Shown here piece after piece: positions 24,531 to 41,335 of a stretch of DNA of 64,000 nt (within the stretch, counting starts at the first letter, position 1; each line of letters opens with the position of its first letter). The notes beneath the pieces are model-generated. The model saw only the letters and a program-made list of their open reading frames with translations. It ran no database searches and was not told the origin of the DNA. This DNA is from Oscillospiraceae bacterium (lineage in GTDB: Bacteria; Bacillota; Clostridia; Oscillospirales; Ruminococcaceae): the NCBI GenBank assembly GCA_017545185.1, contig JAFWQJ010000073.1, forward strand, positions 1 through 64,000, read 5' to 3'. The position numbers were made by a program, and so were the translations under genes.

Positions 24531-24936
24531 GGGCAGCGCGGAGCCCGCGCTGGCGTTTCCTGAAGGCTGCCGCGGACTTCCTGCAGGATTTCAGTACGCA
24601 CTTCATTCCGTTTTCGCCTTTCGATCCAACTTGGGGCACCAATGGGCAGCGCAGAGCCCGCGCGGGCATTTCCTGAAGGCTGCCGCGGACTTCCTGCGTA
24701 AATTGCGGCATACGCGCAGCCATAAGTCAGACTTGGGGCACCAATGGGCAGCGCGGAGCCCTCGCAGGCAATTCCTGAAGGCTGCCGCGGACTTCCTGCG
24801 TAAATTGCGGCATACGCGCAGCCATAAGTCAAACTTGGGGCACCAATGGGCAGCGCGGAGCCCTCGCAGGCAATTCCTGAAGGCTGCCGCGGACTTCGTG
24901 CAGGATTTCAGGGCGCACTTGCTTTCGGATTCCGTG
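24531..24936. repeat. Tandem array of a 102-bp repeat upstream of pyrH
   Basis: A core (GGGCAGCGCGGAGCCC..., ending GCCGCGGACTTCCTGC) starts at 24531, 24644, 24746 and 24848. The last three are spaced exactly 102 bp and share the whole unit, including CTTGGGGCACCAAT before the core. The first copy is diverged and joined to a different flank, which reappears after the last core (GCAGGATTTCAG...CGCACTT). Each core contains the hairpin GCGCGG-AGC-CCGCGC. Because 102 is a multiple of 3, spurious long frames cross it on both strands. Confidence 0.85.
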
Positions 24937-31884: not shown

Positions 31885-32384
31885 AAGCTCTGGTGAAAGC
31901 GCCGTTTGTCCGCCGCATGACAAAACATCTGACTGAGGAGGATGAAGCAGGCATCGCTGCCGCAGTGATCCCGACAATGGAGCCCGCAGAGCCGGAGCTG
32001 ATCGCCGCAATCCGCGGAAACGAATACGATCAGCGCAAGGTGCTGATCCAGGGTCTCCCGATTGCGGCCGCCGGCATGATCCCCGGCTTCATCGCGCATT
32101 CGCTGACCTACTGTCTCGCGGTCGGCATGACGATCATCGCACTGCTGATCGTGCTGTTCTTCGTCAACAGACGCTGCCGGATCGGCGACGAGGCCGAAAA
32201 AATGGTCATCCCGATCGACCATATCGAGGGCAGCTCGTCAAGGGATTACGCGGTGTTCTATCTGCCGGACGGCAAATACAAAATGCGCTGTGAGCTGAAT
32301 CATCCGAACCCGGTTTCGGTGACGGTGCTGCGCTCTGACGGCAGAAGCTACTGCAAGCTCAACGGAAAGGAAAAACGGTCATGA
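31881..32384 (+). CDS. Small membrane protein sharing a PIDH...VFYLPDG domain with its neighbour
   Basis: The 167-residue protein has one or two membrane helices (about residues 67-103, IPGFIAHSLTYCLAVGMTII then ALLIVLFFV) and the C-terminal [VI]-[VI]-P-I-D-H...V-F-Y-L-P-D-G-[RK]-Y domain found in the preceding gene. A frame 14 codons longer is open, but AAGGGGGAT precedes this ATG and it overlaps the previous stop (ATGA). The function is unknown. It overlaps ispG by 4 bases. Confidence 0.75.
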   Translation: MKALVKAPFVRRMTKHLTEEDEAGIAAAVIPTMEPAEPELIAAIRGNEYDQRKVLIQGLPIAAAGMIPGFIAHSLTYCLAVGMTIIALLIVLFFVNRRCRIGDEAEKMVIPIDHIEGSSSRDYAVFYLPDGKYKMRCELNHPNPVSVTVLRSDGRSYCKLNGKEKRS

Positions 32385-33418
32385 GAAATCTGCATCCGGT
32401 CAAGGTCGGAGAATGTCTGCTTGACGGCAAGCATATCTACATCCAGTCTATGCTGAACACGCGCTCGGACGACATTGCAGGCTCCGTCGAACAGGCGAAA
32501 AAGCTTGAGGCTGCAGGCTGCGAGATCGTCCGCGCCGCGATCCCGAACAAGGAAGCGGTCGCGCTGATCCCCGCGATCAAGGAGGCGGTCGGCATTCCGC
32601 TGGTCGCGGACATTCATTTTGACTATAAGCTTGCGCTCGCCGCGGCGGACGCAGGCATCGACAAGATCCGGATCAATCCGGGCAATATCGGTTCCATGGA
32701 CCGCGTCAAGGCGGTCGCGGACAAGTGCAGAGAAAAAAGCATCCCGATCCGCATCGGCGTGAACTCGGGATCACTGGAAAAGGAACTGCTGGCGAAGTTC
32801 GGCGGCCCGACCCCGCAGGCAATGGTCGAGAGCGCACTGAATCATGCGAAGCTGCTTGAAAAATACGACTTCAACGATATCGTGATCTCGATCAAATCCT
32901 CGGATGTACAGAACATGATCGCTTGCTACCGTCTGGCGGCGGAGCAGTGCGATTATCCGCTGCATCTCGGTGTGACGGAGGCGGGCACGGCGCGCATGGG
33001 ACTGATCAAGTCCGCGGCGGGCATCGGCTCGCTGCTCTGCGACGGCATCGGTGAAACGATCCGCGTCTCGCTGACGGCTGACCCGGTCGAGGAGATCTAT
33101 GCGGCACAGGACATTCTGAAGGCGATCGGCAAGCGCGGCGGCGTGCAGCTGGTCTCCTGCCCGACCTGCGGCAGAACGCGCATTGACCTGATCTCCGCGG
33201 CGAAGGCTGTGGAGGACGCGCTGCGCGGCTGCGAGAAGAACATCAAGGTCGCTGTCATGGGCTGCGTGGTGAACGGCCCCGGCGAGGCCAGAGAAGCGGA
33301 CATCGGCATTGCGGGCGGCGACGGCTGTGCGGTGCTGTTCAAGGGCGAGCAGATCCTCGGCAAGGTGCCGGAATCGGAGATCGTTCCCGCCCTGCTTGCG
33401 GAGATCGAGAAACTCTAA
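32381..33418 (+). CDS. ispG: (E)-4-hydroxy-3-methylbut-2-enyl-diphosphate synthase
   Basis: The 345-residue iron-sulfur enzyme converts MEcPP to HMBPP late in the MEP pathway. The TIM-barrel part shows VQSM-like IYIQSMLNTRSDD, VADIHFDYKLALAA and DKIRINPGNIG. The [4Fe-4S] ligands are in SCPTCGRTRID and VMGCVVNGPGEAREADIGIA. It overlaps the previous gene by 4 bases and is the last of the dxr-rseP-ispG run. Confidence 0.96.
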   Translation: MRNLHPVKVGECLLDGKHIYIQSMLNTRSDDIAGSVEQAKKLEAAGCEIVRAAIPNKEAVALIPAIKEAVGIPLVADIHFDYKLALAAADAGIDKIRINPGNIGSMDRVKAVADKCREKSIPIRIGVNSGSLEKELLAKFGGPTPQAMVESALNHAKLLEKYDFNDIVISIKSSDVQNMIACYRLAAEQCDYPLHLGVTEAGTARMGLIKSAAGIGSLLCDGIGETIRVSLTADPVEEIYAAQDILKAIGKRGGVQLVSCPTCGRTRIDLISAAKAVEDALRGCEKNIKVAVMGCVVNGPGEAREADIGIAGGDGCAVLFKGEQILGKVPESEIVPALLAEIEKL

Positions 33419-33524
33419 GCACTCCCAAGCAGCTATGTACACGCCGCGGGGCGGCTTCTGATAGGCTGCTGCTCCCCCAAAAAGGCTGCCGGTGATGTCC
33501 CACGTTTCCGGCGCACACCATATC

Positions 33525-33712
33525 AAAAGTTTTGATCAAACTTTTTCAAAAGTTTGCGGAGTCCGGAGGCAGAGCCTCTGGTCGCCCTCCGCAGAGTGCG
33601 ATACTCCCCTGCGTTCAAGCGCCCGAAGGGCTTGGTGAGCACAATATCAGCTTTGCTGACATTTAAGAGCGGCTCCCATTCAAAAAAGCATCCGCGAAGC
33701 GGATACTTTTTT
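33525..33712 (+). ncRNA. Multi-hairpin repeat element, copy A (upstream of plsX)
   Basis: The element is a chain of short stem-loops: CAAACTTT/AAAGTTTG (33537-33556); CCGGAGGC-AGA-GCCTCTGG (33563-33581); a CCGCAG-loop hairpin; a conserved CCCCTGCGTTCAAG then CAAG-CCC-GAA-GGG-CTTG; ATATCAGC/GCTGACAT; and a last hairpin ATCCGC-GAA-GCGGAT (33690-33704) followed by TTTTTT (33707-33712). A second copy with compensatory changes is upstream of polC at 36714-36926. It could be a small RNA, an attenuator or a mobile structured repeat; the final hairpin is a good terminator. The sequence before it (33419-33524) holds no gene but contains a 19-base repeat (33441-33459) shared with 41643-41661. Confidence 0.5.
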
Positions 33713-33791
33713 CCGCGCTGAATTAAAAAGTGCAAACAGTGCGCTTCTGCGCAAAAAATACCGATAAATCCACAAAGAAAGGCTGATATTC

Positions 33792-34799
33792 ATGCGAATC
33801 ATTCTGGATGCAATGGGCGGAGACAACGCCCCGCTCGCACCGCTCGAGGGTGCTGCAAGAGCCGTACAGGAGCTTGGCGTCGAGGTCACGCTCAGCGGCG
33901 ACGAAAACAAGATCAAGGCACTGGCCGCCGAACACGGCATTTCGCTGGACGGCATCACGTTGCTCCATACCGAGGAGATCATCACCATGGAGGATCAGCC
34001 GACCGATGTCATCAAGGCAAAGAAAAACTGCTCCATGGCAGTCGGTCTGCAGGCGCTTGCCGACGGTCAGGGCGATGCGTTCGTCTCCGCGGGCAACTCC
34101 GGCGCGCTGCTCGTCGGCGCGACTATGATTCCCCGCCGGATCAAGGGCATCAAGCGTGCAGCCATGGCGCCGCTCCTGCCGACCGACAACGGCCACGCGA
34201 TCCTCATGGACGGCGGTGCCAATACCGAATGCAGACCCGAAATGCTCGAGCAGTTCGGCATTATGGGCAGCATCTATATGGAAAAGGTCATGGGGATCCG
34301 GAACCCGAAGGTCGGGCTCATCAACAACGGCTCCGAGGAATGCAAGGGCAGAGAGCTCGAGATCGAGACCTACAAGCTGCTCGAACAGTGTGACATCAAC
34401 TTTATCGGCAATATCGAGGGCAGAGAGGTGCCGACCGGCAAGGCGGATGTGCTCGTCACGGACGGCTTTACCGGCAATATCGTCTTAAAGCTCTACGAGG
34501 GTCTCGGCAAGTTCTTCGCCGCGAAGATCAAGGAAATGTTCTCCGGCGCCGGAAAGATCGGCGCGCTGTTCATGATGGACAAGCTCAGTGCGCTGAAGGA
34601 TTCCTTCGACTACAAGAAGGTCGGCGGCGCGGTGCTGCTCGGCATCTCGAAGCCGGTCATCAAGGCACACGGCAGCTCGAACGGCGAGGCATTCTTCAAT
34701 GCGGTCCGGCAGGCGAAAAACTGCGTGGACGGCAAAATCTGTGAGACGATTTCCGAAGCAGTCGCAGCAAGAAAGGAACAGTCCGGCGGCGCGGAATGA
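33792..34799 (+). CDS. plsX: Phosphate acyltransferase PlsX
   Basis: The 335-residue protein converts acyl-ACP to acyl-phosphate, the acyl donor for PlsY in phospholipid synthesis. It starts MRIILDAMGGDNAPLAPLEG, and carries DAFVSAGNSGALLVGATM, ILMDGGANTECRPEMLEQF, PKVGLINNGSEECKGREL and DVLVTDGFTGNIVLKLYEG. It follows the multi-hairpin element and is 22 bases before rnc. acpP, often between plsX and rnc, is absent here. Confidence 0.96.
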   Translation: MRIILDAMGGDNAPLAPLEGAARAVQELGVEVTLSGDENKIKALAAEHGISLDGITLLHTEEIITMEDQPTDVIKAKKNCSMAVGLQALADGQGDAFVSAGNSGALLVGATMIPRRIKGIKRAAMAPLLPTDNGHAILMDGGANTECRPEMLEQFGIMGSIYMEKVMGIRNPKVGLINNGSEECKGRELEIETYKLLEQCDINFIGNIEGREVPTGKADVLVTDGFTGNIVLKLYEGLGKFFAAKIKEMFSGAGKIGALFMMDKLSALKDSFDYKKVGGAVLLGISKPVIKAHGSSNGEAFFNAVRQAKNCVDGKICETISEAVAARKEQSGGAE

Positions 34800-34821
34800 C
34801 CGCCGGTGAGGAGGCAATCAA

Positions 34822-35514
34822 ATGGGAGCAAAACCGCAGACAGAATTTGAAACAAAAATCGGCTATACGTTCAAGGAACCCGCACTGCTGACAGAAGCAC
34901 TCTGTCATTCGTCCTACGCGAACGAAAAACGCGGGACGCTCCGCTGCAATGAGCGGCTCGAATTTCTAGGCGACAGCGTGCTTTCGATCGTTGTATCCAA
35001 CCACCTGTTCCGGAACTGCACGAATCTGCCGGAGGGCGAGCTGACCAAGATCCGTGCGTCGCTCGTCTGCGAGAAGTCGCTGTTTGAATGGGCAAAGCAG
35101 ATCGCGCTCGGCGATTATCTGCTGCTCGGCCACGGCGAGGATGCGTCCGGCGGCAGAATGCGCCCGTCGATCCTTTCGGATGCATTCGAGGCAGTCATCG
35201 CGGCAATGTTTCTGGACGGCGGCATGGATGCCGTCACGCCGTATATTTTACAGTTCCTGCCGGAGAAGTTTGACCGTCCGTCGGAAGCGTTCCGCGACTA
35301 CAAGACCGTGCTGCAGGAGGTCATCCAGCAGAATCCCGAGGAGCATGTGGAGTATGTGCTCGTCGGCGAGGATGGACCCGACCACGCCAAGCAGTTCCGC
35401 ATGGAGGTGCGCCTCAATTCCAATGTGATCGGCAGGGGCACCGGAAAATCAAAGAAAATTGCGGAGCAGATGGCGGCAAAGGAAGCCCTCATGCTCATGG
35501 GAGAGCAGGTATGA
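34822..35514 (+). CDS. rnc: Ribonuclease III
   Basis: The 230-residue endonuclease cuts double-stranded RNA in rRNA and mRNA processing. The catalytic signature NERLEFLGDSVLSIVVSNHL is near residue 40; the second acidic cluster ILSDAFEAVIAAMFLDGG is near 115. A double-stranded RNA-binding domain (about 155-228; DYKTVLQEVIQQ then GTGKSKKIAEQMAAKEAL) completes it. GTGAGGAGG precedes the ATG. Confidence 0.96.
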   Translation: MGAKPQTEFETKIGYTFKEPALLTEALCHSSYANEKRGTLRCNERLEFLGDSVLSIVVSNHLFRNCTNLPEGELTKIRASLVCEKSLFEWAKQIALGDYLLLGHGEDASGGRMRPSILSDAFEAVIAAMFLDGGMDAVTPYILQFLPEKFDRPSEAFRDYKTVLQEVIQQNPEEHVEYVLVGEDGPDHAKQFRMEVRLNSNVIGRGTGKSKKIAEQMAAKEALMLMGEQV

Positions 35515-36182
35515 AAAAAGGCGGACGCATCGCGCTGACCGCCGGCATTCTGCTGCTTGCCGCATGTATCGCAGTGCCGCATATTTCAACGCAGCATTAT
35601 ATCTGGGCGGGCATCACCGGCGCAGATGGCATGAAAGTGAAGGCCGCGCTGCCTGCTGACGCCGTACAGTGTGCGCTCAGCGGAAACCCGATGATGACCG
35701 GCATGATCATCAGCTTTGTGCTCGCACCGCTGATGTTTGCGTTCAGCGTTTATCTGGCAAAGCATGAGCAGCAAAAGCGCGGCAGATACCGGCGGCTCGG
35801 TCTGCTGACCGCGATCCTTCTCGGGATGCCGGTGCACGAGCTGCTCCACGGTGCCGCGCTGCCTGCAAATGCAGCGGTACGGATCGGCTTCAACAAGGAA
35901 CAGCTCATTGCATTTGCTGCCTCGGACGCGCCGATGAACGCCGCACAGCTCTGCGCACATTTTCTGATGCCGACGCTGCTGCTCGGCATCCTGCCGGTCT
36001 GCATTTCGCTGCTTCTGCGGAAGAAGCATCCGGCGGCGCAGATGTTTTTCCTGTTTTTCGGGATCGGCAGCCTGATCGTAAGTCCGGTTGACTGGGTCGT
36101 GCTGACCGCGATCCTGCGGAGCATTCCGGCGGGTGCGACCGTGCAGATCTCCGAAGCAGTCCCCTATTGGTATATCCGATAA
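35511..36182 (+). CDS. DUF3267-like membrane zincin
   Basis: The 223-residue protein has about five membrane helices and a H-E-x-x-H motif, MPVHELLHGAAL, at about residue 105, as in DUF3267 putative zinc metallopeptidases. PVDWVVLTAIL near the end lies in another helix. The N-terminal helix has a lipoprotein-like Cys (LLLAACIA) but reads as a membrane segment. The substrate is unknown. It overlaps rnc by 4 bases. Confidence 0.7.
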   Translation: MKKGGRIALTAGILLLAACIAVPHISTQHYIWAGITGADGMKVKAALPADAVQCALSGNPMMTGMIISFVLAPLMFAFSVYLAKHEQQKRGRYRRLGLLTAILLGMPVHELLHGAALPANAAVRIGFNKEQLIAFAASDAPMNAAQLCAHFLMPTLLLGILPVCISLLLRKKHPAAQMFFLFFGIGSLIVSPVDWVVLTAILRSIPAGATVQISEAVPYWYIR

Positions 36183-36203
36183 CAAACACGCAGGAGGTGC
36201 CCG

Positions 36204-36686
36204 ATGAGAAGAAACGACCGCGAGATCACCGACAAGGAGGCGATCGCCGCATTTCTCTCCGCAGAGCAGATTCTGCGTGTTGCGTTTTATGATGACGGCG
36301 ACATTTACATTGTGCCGGTCAATTACGGATACTGCGAAGAAAACGGCCGCATCTGCTTTTATTTTCACGGTGCAAAGGCCGGAAGAAAATATACGCTGGC
36401 GCAGAAAAAACCGCGCGTCGGATTTGAGATCGACGGCGGATACGCGCTGCTCCCGGCGGAGACCGGCTGCGGACATTCCGCGAAATACCAAAGCGTGATC
36501 GGAAACGGCACGCTGCAGACCGTGACCGACCCGGACGAGCGCATGAAGGGCTTTGCCTGCATCATGAAGCAGGCGACCGGAAAAGCGGAATGGGAATACA
36601 GCCCGGCGGTGCTGGAAAAAACGGCCGTGTTCCGGCTGGATGCGGAGCATCTCACCTGCAAAGCCAAAAGCGGATCACCTGAATGA
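36204..36686 (+). CDS. Pyridoxamine 5'-phosphate oxidase-like flavoprotein (NimA-type)
   Basis: The 160-residue split-barrel protein has the features of the FMN-binding NimA/YwrF-like group: EITDKEAIAAFLSAEQILRV at the start, IYIVPVNYGYCEENGRICFY (flavin-facing strands), FHGAKAGRKYTL, and VGFEIDGGYAL followed by GCGHSAKYQSVIGNGTLQ. Such proteins reduce nitro compounds or bind heme or flavin; the substrate is not evident. AGGAGG precedes the ATG. Confidence 0.85.
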   Translation: MRRNDREITDKEAIAAFLSAEQILRVAFYDDGDIYIVPVNYGYCEENGRICFYFHGAKAGRKYTLAQKKPRVGFEIDGGYALLPAETGCGHSAKYQSVIGNGTLQTVTDPDERMKGFACIMKQATGKAEWEYSPAVLEKTAVFRLDAEHLTCKAKSGSPE

Positions 36687-36713
36687 CAATCGCTTAACTG
36701 TGCCTCAAAAATA

Positions 36714-36926
36714 AAGTTTTTGGTCGAGCTTTTTTCAAAAAGCTCGCGGGACGAGGGCGGCGCCCTCGTCGCTTGCCGCAGCGAGCGAAATACCCCTGCG
36801 TGCAAGAGCTCGGCGGGCTTGGGGACCTCACGTTTGCCGAAGGCAAACTGGCACAGTTTCGCTTCGCGAAACATGGGCGATCAGAGATCCCCATTCCAAA
36901 TAGCATCCGCAAAGCGGATACCTTTT
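36714..36926 (+). ncRNA. Multi-hairpin repeat element, copy B (upstream of polC)
   Basis: Same order of modules as the copy before plsX: CGAGCTTTTT/AAAAAGCTCG (36725-36746), GACGAGGGC-GGC-GCCCTCGTC (36750-36770), a CCGCAG-loop hairpin (TCGCT/AGCGA), the conserved CCCCTGCGTGCAAG, two inserted hairpins (GTTTGCC/GGCAAAC and GTTTCGC/GCGAAAC), CCCCATTC, and the last hairpin ATCCGC-AAA-GCGGAT (36905-36919) followed by TTTT. Stem bases differ from copy A in pairs, keeping the helices. It ends 41 bases before the polC ATG. Confidence 0.5.
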
Positions 36927-36967
36927 CGTAGCTGATGATTTGATTGCAAGCAAAGGAATGATATCAC

Positions 36968-39900
36968 ATGCAGACACTGCGTGAATTTTTGCGTGAATAC
37001 GCAGCAAAGCTGCCGGGGAACGTGCTGGACGGCAAGATCCGGCGCGTTCTTTCCAACAAAAGCAGGAGCCGGCTGTTCTTTGAAACCGAATATCCGGCAC
37101 CGCTGCCGTTTGCACAGCTCTCCGAAACCGAAAACGAGCTCGCGAGCCGGCTGGAGGTCGAAGCCTGCAGAATCCTCTGCCGCTACCCCGCCGAATGCTT
37201 TTCCGCGGAGGTGCTGCCGGAGCTGTTCCTGACCCTGCGCCGCGAGATCCCGATGATCAACGGATTTCTGGAGGACGCGGGGCTTTCGCTGCATGACGGC
37301 ATTCTTGAGATCGAGTTAAAGCACGGCGGTGCGGATATCCTTGAGCAGACCCGTTTCCGCGAGGAGCTCGCCCGCGCCGTGCATACGATGTTTTCCGTGC
37401 CGCTGACCGTACAGTTTGCGGGTTCGCATCTGCATGTGACCGCCGAGGAGCAGGCACAGATGCAGTCCGATGTGCTGGCCTCGCTGCCGGAGGACCGCTG
37501 GATCCCGCCGGAGCCGCAGCAGACCTCCGACGCACCGGTCTTTTCCGCGCTGACGCAGCTCACGCCCGACGCCGAGCCGGTTCAGCCGGAGCGTCCCGAC
37601 AAGGAGTCGCTCAATGTCCTTTACGGCAGAGCGATCAAGGAAAAGCCGCTTGCGATCAGCAACATCGTGCAGCAGCTCGGCAGGGGCATGGACGGCAAGG
37701 CCAAAAAATTCGCGTTCACCTGCGAGGTCTTTGCAAAGCCGGAATCACGCGTGCTCAAAAGCGGCAAGACTTTGCTGACCTTCCCCGTCACCGACTACAC
37801 CGGCAGCCTGCTCGTCAAAATGTTCCTCGATGAGCAGAAGCTTGCGGATTTCCAGGTCGGCGACCTGAAAAAAGGCACCGCGCTGATGATCTTCGGCACG
37901 GTCGAATACGACGACTATGACCACGATATCTGCGTCAAGCCGAACGCGATCAACAGCTACAAGCCGGAGCGCCGCACCGATGACGCGCCGGTCAAGCGCG
38001 TGGAGCTGCATCTGCATACGAATATGTCCGCAATGGACGCCGTGACCTCTGCGGAGGCGCTCTGCAACCGGGCGCATGACTGGGGTCACCGCGCGATCGC
38101 GATCACTGACCACGGCGTCGTGCAGGCGTTCCCCGAGGCGATGAACGCGACCGCGAAATGGAAGGATTTTCGCGTGATCTACGGCTGCGAAGCCTATGTC
38201 GTCAACGACCTCAACAAGCTCTGCGTCATTGACAGCGACGACCCGCGTACCCCGCAGGACGAGGTCATCGTGTTCGACGTTGAGACGACCGGCCTTTCCC
38301 CGAAGCATGACCGCCTGACCGAGATCGGCGCGGTCAAGATCCGCGGAATGCGCATCATCGACAGCTTCGATACCTTTGTCAATCCGGAGCGGGATATCCC
38401 GCAGAACATTCAGGAGCTGACGCATATCACGCCGGACATGGTCGCGGACGCCCCGAAGGAAAAAGAGGCTGTCGAGCAGTTCTTCGCGTTCTGCGGCGAA
38501 AACCCGGTGCTGATCGCGCACAATGCATCCTTTGACACCTCGTTTATCCGCGCGGTCTTTGCGCGGCACGGAAACAGCCGGCCGTTCGTCACCGTGGATA
38601 CGGTCATCATGTCCCGCGCCGTGCTGCCCGAGCTCGGACGGCATAAGCTGGACACGATCGCGAAGCACTTAAAGCTCGGCAAATTCGAGCATCACCGCGC
38701 CGCGGATGACGCCTACATGCTCGCGAAAATTTACCTGACGCTCATGGAGCGCATCATCAATGAGCGCGGGCTCGAAACGCTCGGCGGACTGAACACCGTT
38801 CTGCCGGAAATCGACCCGAAAAAGCTGAAATCCTATCACCAGATCATCCTCGCGAAGAACCAGACCGGCATCAAGAATCTCTACCGGCTGGTGTCGTATT
38901 CGCAGCTCGATTATTTCTATAAAAAGCCGCTGATCCCGAAGTCGCTGCTCATCAAGCATCATGAGGGACTGCTCTACGGCAGCGCCTGTGAAGCGGGAGA
39001 GCTGTTCTCCGCGCTCGTTGAGGGCAAGCCGGAAGCGGAACTCGATGAGCTCGCAAAATTCTACGATTATCTCGAGATCCAGCCGATCGCGAACAATGCC
39101 TTCATGCTCCGCAGCGAGCACTACCCCGCGCAGACCGAAGAAGATCTGCGGAATCTGAACCGCCGGATCCTCGAGATCGGCGACCGCAACGGCATTCCGG
39201 TCGTTGCGACCTGCGACGTCCACTTCATGGACGAGAAGGACGGCATTTACCGCGAGATCCTGCAATCCGGCATGGGCTTTGACGATGCAGGCAGACAGGC
39301 TCCGCTGTATTTCCGGACAACGGACGAAATGCTCGAGGAGTTTGACTATCTCGGCTCCGAGCGCGCATTCGAGGTCGTTGTCACGAACACGAACATGATC
39401 GCGGACAAGATCGACCGCTGCCACGCGATCCCGAAGGGCACGTTTACGCCCTCGATCCCCGGCGCGGAGGAGGATCTCATCCGCATCACGACCGACAAGG
39501 CCAAGAGCATTTACGGCGACCCGCTGCCGGAGCTCGTCCAAAAACGGCTTGACCGCGAGCTCGATTCGATCTGCCGCCACGGCTTCTCCGTGCTGTACAT
39601 GATCGCGCAGAAGCTTGTCGCGAACTCCGAGAAGCACGGCTATCTCGTCGGCTCCAGAGGTTCGGTCGGCTCGTCCTTTGTCGCGTCCATGGCGGGCATC
39701 TCCGAGGTCAATCCCCTCGTTCCGCATTATGTCTGCCCGGAATGCAAATACGCCGAATTTATCACGGACGGCTCGGTCGGCTCCGGCTTTGACCTTCCGC
39801 CGAAGAACTGTCCGAACTGCGGCACCGATATGAAGCGCGACGGTCACGATATCCCGTTCGAGACCTTCCTCGGCTTCGACGGCGACAAGGCGCCGGATAT

Positions 39901-41335
39901 CGACCAGAATTTTTCCAGTGAATATCAGTCCGAATCGCACCGCTATACCGAGGAGCTGTTCGGCAGAGCAAACGTGTTCAAGGCGGGCACGATCTCCGGC
40001 GTGCAGGACAAGATCGCATACGGCTATGTCAAGCACTATCTTGAGGACTGCGGCCTGACCGTCAACAACAGCGAGGTCAACCGGCTGGTCGCGGGCTGCG
40101 TCGGCGTCAAAAAGACGACGGGTCAGCACCCGGGCGGCATGGTCGTTGTGCCGGAGGACTTCGATATCTTCGATTTTACGCCGGTGCAGCAGCCGGGTGA
40201 ACCGAGCGAGGCCGACGATTCCGATATGATCATCACGACGCACTTCGACTTCCACAAGCTGCATGATACGATCCTCAAGCTTGACGAGCTCGGCCACGTT
40301 GTCCCGACGCTCTACAAGCATCTCGAAGACCTGACCGGCATGAAGATCGCGGATGTCCCGACGACCGACCCGAAGGTCTTTCAGATGTGCACGGACTGCT
40401 CCGTGCTCGGCGTCACGGAGGAGGAGATCTTCTGCCCGACCGGCTCGCTCGGCATTCCGGAAATGGGCACGAACTTCACGATCGGTATGCTGCTGGACGC
40501 AAAACCGAAGCTCTTTTCCGACTTTCTGCAGATCTCGGGTCTGTCACACGGTACGGATGTGTGGCTCGGCAATGCAAAGGATCTGATCGCGGACGGCACC
40601 TGCACGATCTCCGACGTCATCGGTACCCGTGACTCGATCATGACCTATCTGCTCTATCATGATGTGGAGCCGAAGCAGGCGTTCCAGATCATGGAGGATA
40701 CCCGTAAGGGCAAGGCACCCAAGACCTTCTCGCCGGAGCGCATCCAGATGCTGCTCGACCACAATGTCCCGCAGTGGTATATCGACTCCTGCCTGAAGAT
40801 CAAGTATATGTTCCCGAAAGCGCACGCGGCGGCGTATGTCACCGCTGCGATCAAGCTGGGCTGGTTCAAGCTGTACAAGCCGCTGGAATACTACGCGACG
40901 TACTTCTCCGTGCGCGGCGGCGACTTTGACGCTGCCCTCGCGGTCGAAGGCGTGGACGCGGTGCGCAATAAGATTCAGGAGCTGAACGCCAAGGGCAAGG
41001 AACGCTCCAAAAAGGAAGGCGACCTGCGCGATATCCTGCTGATCGTCAATGAGATGATGTCCAGAGGCTACTTCTTCCTGCCGGTTGACCTGAAACGCTC
41101 GCATTCCCGCGATTATCTGATCGAGGACGGCAGACTGCGCATCCCGTTTGCCGCGATCGACGGCATCGGCGAAAAGGCGGCGGACAAGCTTTACGAGACC
41201 GCACAGAACGGCGATTATATCTCCGTGGACGAGTTCCAGCAGCTTTCCGGCGCGTCAAAAGCGACAATTGATGCACTCGATGCGCTCGGGGCTCTGGGGA
41301 ATCTTCCGAAATCCAATCAGCTTTCGCTGTTCTGA
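36968..41335 (+). CDS. polC: DNA polymerase III PolC
   Basis: This 1455-residue Gram-positive replicative polymerase has, in order, an N-terminal domain (1-225), an OB fold (about 226-335), a PHP domain (VELHLHTNMSAMDAV, about 340, and later parts), an inserted DEDDh 3'-5' exonuclease (VIVFDVETTGLSPKHDRLTE, about 430-595; HNASFDTSFI; HHRAADDAYML) and the C-family polymerase core. The core shows GSRGSVGSSFVASMAGISEV, a zinc-binding CPEC...CPNCG, KAPDIDQNFSSEYQ with catalytic Asp residues, TGQHPGGMVVVPEDF and KAHAAAYVTAAIKLGWFK, and ends QLSLF. It follows the multi-hairpin element. Confidence 0.97.
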   Translation: MQTLREFLREYAAKLPGNVLDGKIRRVLSNKSRSRLFFETEYPAPLPFAQLSETENELASRLEVEACRILCRYPAECFSAEVLPELFLTLRREIPMINGFLEDAGLSLHDGILEIELKHGGADILEQTRFREELARAVHTMFSVPLTVQFAGSHLHVTAEEQAQMQSDVLASLPEDRWIPPEPQQTSDAPVFSALTQLTPDAEPVQPERPDKESLNVLYGRAIKEKPLAISNIVQQLGRGMDGKAKKFAFTCEVFAKPESRVLKSGKTLLTFPVTDYTGSLLVKMFLDEQKLADFQVGDLKKGTALMIFGTVEYDDYDHDICVKPNAINSYKPERRTDDAPVKRVELHLHTNMSAMDAVTSAEALCNRAHDWGHRAIAITDHGVVQAFPEAMNATAKWKDFRVIYGCEAYVVNDLNKLCVIDSDDPRTPQDEVIVFDVETTGLSPKHDRLTEIGAVKIRGMRIIDSFDTFVNPERDIPQNIQELTHITPDMVADAPKEKEAVEQFFAFCGENPVLIAHNASFDTSFIRAVFARHGNSRPFVTVDTVIMSRAVLPELGRHKLDTIAKHLKLGKFEHHRAADDAYMLAKIYLTLMERIINERGLETLGGLNTVLPEIDPKKLKSYHQIILAKNQTGIKNLYRLVSYSQLDYFYKKPLIPKSLLIKHHEGLLYGSACEAGELFSALVEGKPEAELDELAKFYDYLEIQPIANNAFMLRSEHYPAQTEEDLRNLNRRILEIGDRNGIPVVATCDVHFMDEKDGIYREILQSGMGFDDAGRQAPLYFRTTDEMLEEFDYLGSERAFEVVVTNTNMIADKIDRCHAIPKGTFTPSIPGAEEDLIRITTDKAKSIYGDPLPELVQKRLDRELDSICRHGFSVLYMIAQKLVANSEKHGYLVGSRGSVGSSFVASMAGISEVNPLVPHYVCPECKYAEFITDGSVGSGFDLPPKNCPNCGTDMKRDGHDIPFETFLGFDGDKAPDIDQNFSSEYQSESHRYTEELFGRANVFKAGTISGVQDKIAYGYVKHYLEDCGLTVNNSEVNRLVAGCVGVKKTTGQHPGGMVVVPEDFDIFDFTPVQQPGEPSEADDSDMIITTHFDFHKLHDTILKLDELGHVVPTLYKHLEDLTGMKIADVPTTDPKVFQMCTDCSVLGVTEEEIFCPTGSLGIPEMGTNFTIGMLLDAKPKLFSDFLQISGLSHGTDVWLGNAKDLIADGTCTISDVIGTRDSIMTYLLYHDVEPKQAFQIMEDTRKGKAPKTFSPERIQMLLDHNVPQWYIDSCLKIKYMFPKAHAAAYVTAAIKLGWFKLYKPLEYYATYFSVRGGDFDAALAVEGVDAVRNKIQELNAKGKERSKKEGDLRDILLIVNEMMSRGYFFLPVDLKRSHSRDYLIEDGRLRIPFAAIDGIGEKAADKLYETAQNGDYISVDEFQQLSGASKATIDALDALGALGNLPKSNQLSLF

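Follow-up and report, generated by a model that had tools for sequence, protein, structure and literature searches.

In silico analysis of a 64,000-nucleotide stretch of an Oscillospiraceae bacterium (contig JAFWQJ010000073.1, positions 1-64000, in the following called the window; contig C73 of genome G000, a 3.6 Mb draft genome in 94 contigs) revealed two intergenic multi-hairpin elements, copies A and B. Both are probably members of a palindromic repeat family, mosaic in build and non-coding, whose copies are dispersed in the genomes of Ruminococcus-like bacteria and of some further members of the class. This family appears to be a mobile repeat that exchanges hairpin cassettes at the DNA level and may have a role as RNA as well. 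The initial annotation had placed the two copies on the same strand upstream of plsX and polC and had suggested a small RNA family, a leader attenuator of these two genes or a mobile structured repeat. Both copies were recovered at these places by covariance models (Table 1), and the mobile repeat fitted best among the three suggestions.

Copies A and B have in common the order P1, P2, P3, CCCCTGCGT-N-CAAG, P4, P5, ATCCGC-RAA-GCGGAT and a T-rich tail, so that the stem-loop order, the single-stranded block with CAAG and the ending described initially were all seen. The same is true for the paired stem differences (CAAAC/GTTTG vs. CGAGC/GCTCG; CCGGAGGC/GCCTCTGG vs. ACGAGGGC/GCCCTCGT) and for the extra hairpin in copy B, as P5 contains two inner hairpins in B and one in A. 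The long P5 cassette of copy B recurs in near-identical form at L059, L064, L066, and L069. Each copy folded more stably than 200 of 200 shuffled sequences (z = -3.9 for A and -4.7 for B). The terminal hairpin motif was matched twice in the window (0.00 expected); the block CCCCTGCGTNCAAG, searched with up to three mismatches, was not enriched (14 matches vs. 20.6 expected), and just its two exact matches stand out.

A pattern search of G000 returned 13 places, of which 11 were copies of the element. With a covariance model built from nine copies (R1), 59 matches were obtained in G000 at E 0.1, and 56 were counted (E 6.9e-53 to 2.3e-5), which excludes a chance origin of the likeness between A and B; ten weaker matches (E from 9.7e-6 to 0.008) were left uncounted, most of which lie next to a copy on the other strand. 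The sister species G002 contained 60 copies. The search of relatives proposed in the initial annotation was done with R1 on 30 genomes of the genus (95 candidates scored per genome) and gave 0-72 copies each, with at least one in 28 of the 30. Based on PlsX, the nearest named relative is the metagenome-assembled genome (MAG) Ruminococcus sp. Phil11 707 (97%).

The copies in G000 are mosaic. Most consist of a constant 5' module (P1, P2, P3) and a variable 3' half, namely I (26 copies), II (17), III (6), or another (7); P1 is altered or missing in eight of the 56, and the last hairpin of variant I is absent from 3' halves II and III within the matched stretch. The constant end is a three-hairpin unit of about 80 bp, AAAAGTTTT-P1-P2-P3-GCGAAA, and the 56 copies each have a single strong unit. 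In total, 51 different cassette combinations were observed among them. Testing the cassettes for linkage in G000, we found P1-P2 (p 0.14), P1-P3 (p 0.10), P2-P3 (p 0.78), P2-3' half (p 0.15), and P3-3' half (p 0.13) to be largely unlinked; 39-49 of the 56 copies entered these tests (39-47 in those among P1, P2, and P3), copies with a deleted P1, with a form outside the classes or with a P3 form occurring less than four times being excluded, and the power is limited because there are many forms and few copies.

Presence and composition of the element also differed between G000 and G002, of which about 450 kb was available. At 13 sites of G000 both flanks were collinear; the element was present in both genomes at nine of them and absent from G002 at four (window copy B, L057, L056, and the second copy at L068). 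While the flanks of these sites matched at about 88-98%, at least one cassette differed at eight of the nine shared sites (P1 at six, P2 at five, P3 at three, the 3' half at five), and only L048 was unchanged save for small differences. At the site of copy A, G002 contains different forms of P1 and P2 together with 3' half II; at L055, G000 has the short P5 and G002 the long one. The sites L061 and L062 of G000 join flanks that in G002 are separated by about 42 and 21 kb, possibly due to rearrangement, possibly due to misassembly. In place of the element of L056, G002 contains an extra gene between the same neighbors (contig C41, 63395-64840), which looks radical-SAM-like.

The exchange of whole hairpins suggested by these sites could also be structure-directed. 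Stem-loops would then be swapped, inserted and removed as units by a process acting on single-stranded DNA, either through an unrecognised recombinase or through template switching during replication, and the stems would shuffle faster than the neighboring genes diverge. The attC hairpins of integrons provide a comparison for such an exchange. We consider this explanation quite unlikely; if the exchange were structure-directed, it would constitute a new route of DNA shuffling in bacteria.

Paired substitutions in the stems had been taken initially as a sign of selection on RNA structure. In the 5' module of 35 copies, 97.5% of the cells were paired (31-48% in slid controls), and 81 cells were double-changed compared to 23.0 in shuffles, a number reached in none of 500 shuffles, although relatedness was left uncorrected. 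Two other measures were weaker: the number of base pairs with a double change was 9 vs. 7.0 (23 of 500 shuffles reached 9), and further pair types numbered 19 vs. 22.4. In P1 we counted 28 double changes and neither one-sided changes nor unpaired cells, in P3 52 double changes and a single one-sided one. These scarce intermediates are pointing to an exchange of finished, whole hairpins, while RNA selection is still compatible with them.

G-U and A-C cells were compared in P1 and P3; P2 was excluded since the register of its columns is not the same in all forms. In three non-overlapping sets (118, 84, and 40 distinct rows) the ratio G-U : A-C was 16:10, 27:16, and 4:0, giving 47:26 over all 242 rows and 26:21 in P3. 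G-U is therefore somewhat preferred over A-C, and clearly so in P1. It is nevertheless rare, with 47 of more than 3,700 cells compared to 31 of 373 in tRNAs. The 17 tRNAs, taken from the fetched stretches, showed a ratio of 31:0, a control that is biased because the finder favors G-U.

The pairing, the excess of double changes, the preference for G-U, the stable folds of both window copies and their terminator-like last hairpins would all suit a structured RNA family, transcribed as 3' untranslated region or read-through RNA, with stems under selection for protection of mRNA 3' ends, termination or processing. We regard this explanation as possible, though doubtful. The paired changes themselves are real; the conclusion drawn from them is weakened by the whole-hairpin forms with few one-sided changes, by the cassettes that differ en bloc at orthologous sites, and by the number of pair types, which was not higher than in shuffles. 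Also the nearly even ratio in P3, set against that of the tRNAs, the T-run beyond the last hairpin, which varies and is not conserved across variant I copies, the lack of a clear strand bias in other genera and the symmetric two-ended form in genome G173 (see below) speak against an RNA family.

To relate the element to its neighborhood, genes were called with a home-made, unvalidated caller. Of 53 copies in G000 (of 56) with both neighbors called, 28 were located in convergent, 22 in codirectional and three in divergent gaps; 19 of the codirectional copies were on the gene strand and three against it. Single copies in seven other genomes of the genus were distributed similarly (20 convergent, 22 codirectional with 19:3 on the gene strand, six divergent). 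Pooling these 101 copies, with eight multi-hit sites of the genus excluded, convergent gaps were enriched (48/101 vs. 53/355, p 6e-11) and divergent gaps depleted (9/101 vs. 86/355, p 5e-4) relative to a background of 355 gaps (100 bases or longer) from fetched loci of 18 genomes picked for holding the element. Across ten genomes from other genera, the gene-strand ratio was 11:9, or 10:4 without G387 (1:5), so that a strand preference may or may not extend beyond the genus. The initial annotation had held that copies lying without relation to genes would speak against an RNA role; this applies only in part, as the copies are clearly related to the 3' ends of genes and, within the genus, also to the gene strand.

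The enrichment in convergent gaps and the terminator-like ends of the window copies could reflect a bidirectional terminator or insulator kept for separating transcription units. This seems very unlikely to us. Among the matches listed, several copies are preceded by a terminator-like hairpin module of their own, flanked by an A-run and a T-run, and 3' halves II and III lack the variant I last hairpin within the matched stretch. Furthermore, presence of the element varies between close species, and terminator-like sites in the window region (8 vs. 4.4 in shuffles, standard deviation 2.2) were not clearly more numerous than expected.

Control of plsX and polC by a leader attenuator or a riboswitch, suggested by the position of copies A and B, which stop 40-79 nt ahead of the called starts of the two genes, is hardly conceivable. 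It is unsupported because the 56 copies sit by many different genes, often in convergent gaps, where no gene starts. Of 50 named plsX loci only one, the G002 contig itself, had any copy, and that copy is built differently from copy A; the plsX region of 13 other genomes of the genus contained no element. In the search of plsX regions, 18 of 20 stretches (from G002 and the 13 genomes) were without match; one match was the plsX copy of G002, and the two remaining matches were in a stretch of G006 without plsX. Copy B is missing at polC of G002, an absence that holds for G002 alone, as the polC start was matched solely in the stretch of that genome. In addition, no Rfam family reached the gathering score in the window, the element included (seven weak matches at permissive settings), and none of six Rfam matches in 12 related loci (T-box, tRNA, and signal recognition particle RNA) was inside an element match.

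The host range was investigated with a second model (R2), restricted to the three-hairpin 5' module of about 80 nt. It matched in at least 52 of 197 genomes and at least 35 of 125 genera of the family, and in at least 10 of 245 genomes of the class; these counts are lower bounds, because stricter filters were applied and only 23 or 19 candidates were scored per genome. The range was patchy also among near-complete assemblies, with five copies in G213 (one contig), four in G080 (two contigs), nine in G141 (two contigs), and none in G033 and G049. In G378, a draft genome of another family, at least six among 19 copies listed are no more than about 200 bases away from the end of a contig, which looks as though the assembly had broken at near-identical copies. 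A degenerate 19-nt pattern was found in 13 viral contigs, of which one contained a real copy, with the 5' module located between phage portal and terminase genes (IMG/VR contig, L256 2436-2548); phages are therefore possible vehicles. A plasmid search with copy A gave no match.

In genome G173 (2.9 Mb, eight contigs) the 5' module occurred predominantly in inverted pairs. R2 gave 91 matches, 84 of them within fetched stretches, and 32 of 35 adjacent pairs less than 1.5 kb apart faced inward. The paired elements are 211-1045 bp long. Their ends are structured and their interior is rich in hairpins; judged by eye, the interior has sequence blocks in common with 3' half II of G000. The home-made caller placed no gene inside any of the 32 pairs, indicating that they are non-coding; 23 of them were located in codirectional, seven in convergent and two in divergent gaps. 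In the genus of the window five inward pairs were called (in G001, G006, and G009), while the remaining copies were single or on the same strand. At L248 (6450-7534) the outer flanks of the element, about 60 bp each, are themselves inverted repeats, which makes the whole a nested palindrome about 1 kb in length.

We propose that in some genera two of the roughly 80-bp units face each other as inverted ends of a non-coding element of 0.2-1 kb, while in the genus of the window most copies would represent one unit joined to one of several 3' halves. The element may be non-autonomous DNA that was spread through an enzyme acting in trans, and its cassettes may have been traded between copies through recombination or gene conversion. 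Selection or insertion bias would then leave the repeats mostly at gene 3' ends, where they are presumably tolerated, and seldom in divergent gaps, which contain only promoters. Effects as RNA, such as a 3'-end hairpin or a weak terminator, would be secondary and specific to the locus.

Several results weigh against this proposal. Target-site duplications were not apparent at the 32 pairs of G173 (mean longest flank match 3.97 vs. 3.94 in shuffled sequence), although very short or decayed ones would escape the test, and ends taken from the same element (0.684) did not resemble each other more than ends taken from different ones (0.720); the pairs therefore give no sign of classic transposition of the whole element. 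The Y1 transposase (PF01797), the one transposase family searched, was absent from six of six genomes of the genus. Within the genus, codirectional copies were on the gene strand at 38:6, which fits a strand-specific RNA role, and P1 alone showed a G-U : A-C ratio of 21:5. The P1 form was linked to the 3' half in G000 (p 0.0035). Finally, single swaps and rearrangements could be assembly errors, because G002 is a MAG and G000 a draft in 94 contigs.

Among 13 other carriers PF01797 was above the cut-off in five (G173, G080, G185, G058, and G231), below it in two (G154 and G207) and absent from six, and it was absent from 12 of all 19 carriers searched. An origin from IS200/IS605 elements, from the elements known as PATE or from RAYT had been considered on the basis of the terminal hairpins, and was rejected as the searched genomes of the genus were without the Y1 transposase. 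An autonomous parent element was likewise rejected, since none of the 32 pairs of G173 contained a called gene.

Among known systems, BOX of Streptococcus pneumoniae (boxA-boxB-boxC) is described in excerpts of PMC3049150 as an interspersed, composite repeat that folds into stem-loops, with a variable number of internal modules, over-representation in convergent gaps and ends resembling ISSpn2. On the basis of these excerpts, the element shares with BOX its composite stem-loop structure, the variable internal hairpins and the excess in convergent gaps. It differs in its hosts, the comparison being one of descriptions rather than with BOX sequence, and no partner resembling ISSpn2 was found here. 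Moreover, several interchangeable versions exist for most of its hairpins, and its constant unit of 80 bp can be present at both ends. The REP, BIME and REPIN sequences associated with RAYT (Y1) are high-copy extragenic palindromes, for which PMC3116915 proposes that inverted doublets are the unit, of which singlets are remnants. Likewise, the element reaches high extragenic copy numbers (56 in G000 and 91 in G173), and inverted doublets dominate in G173. However, its unit consists of three hairpins in 80 nt, single units prevail in the genus of the window, and Y1 was missing from the six genomes of that genus. With miniature inverted-repeat transposable elements, as defined in the background section of PMC3049150, it shares the small size, the lack of coding sequence, many copies, strong secondary structure and, in some genera, inverted ends, but neither a target-site duplication signal nor a partner transposase was found, and the ends of one element are not more alike than those of different elements.

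As the RAYT test failed in the genus and the target-site test in G173, the element was filed under neither BOX nor REPIN; we call it a new, mosaic variant of interspersed palindromic repeats. No description of this repeat family was found in the literature within the collection and terms used, and PMC3733652 does not mention clostrid, ruminococc, firmicutes or faecalibacterium. The element explains dozens of intergenic gaps in the Ruminococcus-like lineage, for which we found no repeat family described. Strong paired substitutions are usually taken to prove an RNA structure, yet they may also result when hairpin cassettes are exchanged as DNA. In addition, the copies may seed rearrangements and break draft assemblies.

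Table 1. Copies A and B in the window, their parts and the flanking genes, which are named on the basis of family matches.
Feature	Position	Strand	Basis or remark
Copy A	33524..33712	+	3' half of variant I; R1 covariance model 153.8 bits, E 4.9e-41
Copy A, 5' module	33524-33604	+	R2 model match, 89.6 bits
Copy A, P1, form c (CAAACTTTTTCAAAAGTTTG)	33537..33556	+	sequence; P1 cells 100% paired over 35 copies
Copy A, P2 (CCGGAGGC-AGA-GCCTCTGG)	33563..33581	+	sequence and fold
Copy A, P3 (TCGCCCTC-CGCA-GAGTGCGA), one mismatch	33582..33601	+	sequence; paired-change analysis
Copy A, conserved block CCCCTGCGTTCAAG	33606..33619	+	CAAG of the block doubles as 5' arm of P4
Copy A, P4 (CAAG...CTTG)	33616..33634	+	sequence and alignment
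Copy A, P5 region, one inner hairpin (ATATCAGCTTTGCTGACAT)	33634..33677	+	sequence and alignment
Copy A, last hairpin ATCCGC-GAA-GCGGAT	33690..33704	+	terminator-like; followed by T-run 33707-33712
Copy B	36712..36927	+	variant I, long P5; R1 162.7 bits, E 1.6e-43; no counterpart in G002
Copy B, P1, form a (CGAGCTTTTTTCAAAAAGCTCG)	36725..36746	+	sequence
Copy B, P2 (ACGAGGGC-GGC-GCCCTCGT)	36751..36769	+	sequence
Copy B, P3	36769..36788	+	sequence
Copy B, conserved block CCCCTGCGTGCAAG	36793..36806	+	block search
Copy B, P5, long form	36821..36892	+	sequence; inner hairpins 36832-36848 and 36856-36872
Copy B, last hairpin ATCCGC-AAA-GCGGAT	36905..36919	+	terminator-like; short T-run
GcpE-family gene (ispG)	32381-33418		flanks copy A
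plsX (FA_synthesis family)	33792-34799		flanks copy A
Small Pyridox_ox_2 family gene	36204-36686		flanks copy B
polC	36968-41335		flanks copy B

Among the matches listed, many copies were surrounded by additional repeated hairpin modules. Those recurring 5' of the element (at L046, L060, L073, and others) include a GGGGCTCCGCCCC/CTGGGGACTAGTCCCCAG hairpin pair, a terminator-like AAAAGGACGCTGA...TCGGCGTCCTTTT hairpin and GCCGGTCGGGCGGTAGGCTAACCG. Right before copy A (33440-33520) there are two further stretches akin to these recurring modules, which are also present at that place in G002. Elsewhere in the window (24628-24901), a tandem repeat with a unit of 102 bp (2.7 copies, 95% matches) was observed at the upstream end of an AA_kinase open frame, presumably uridylate kinase, in which the family match covers the C-terminal part; this repeat region is arranged differently in G002.

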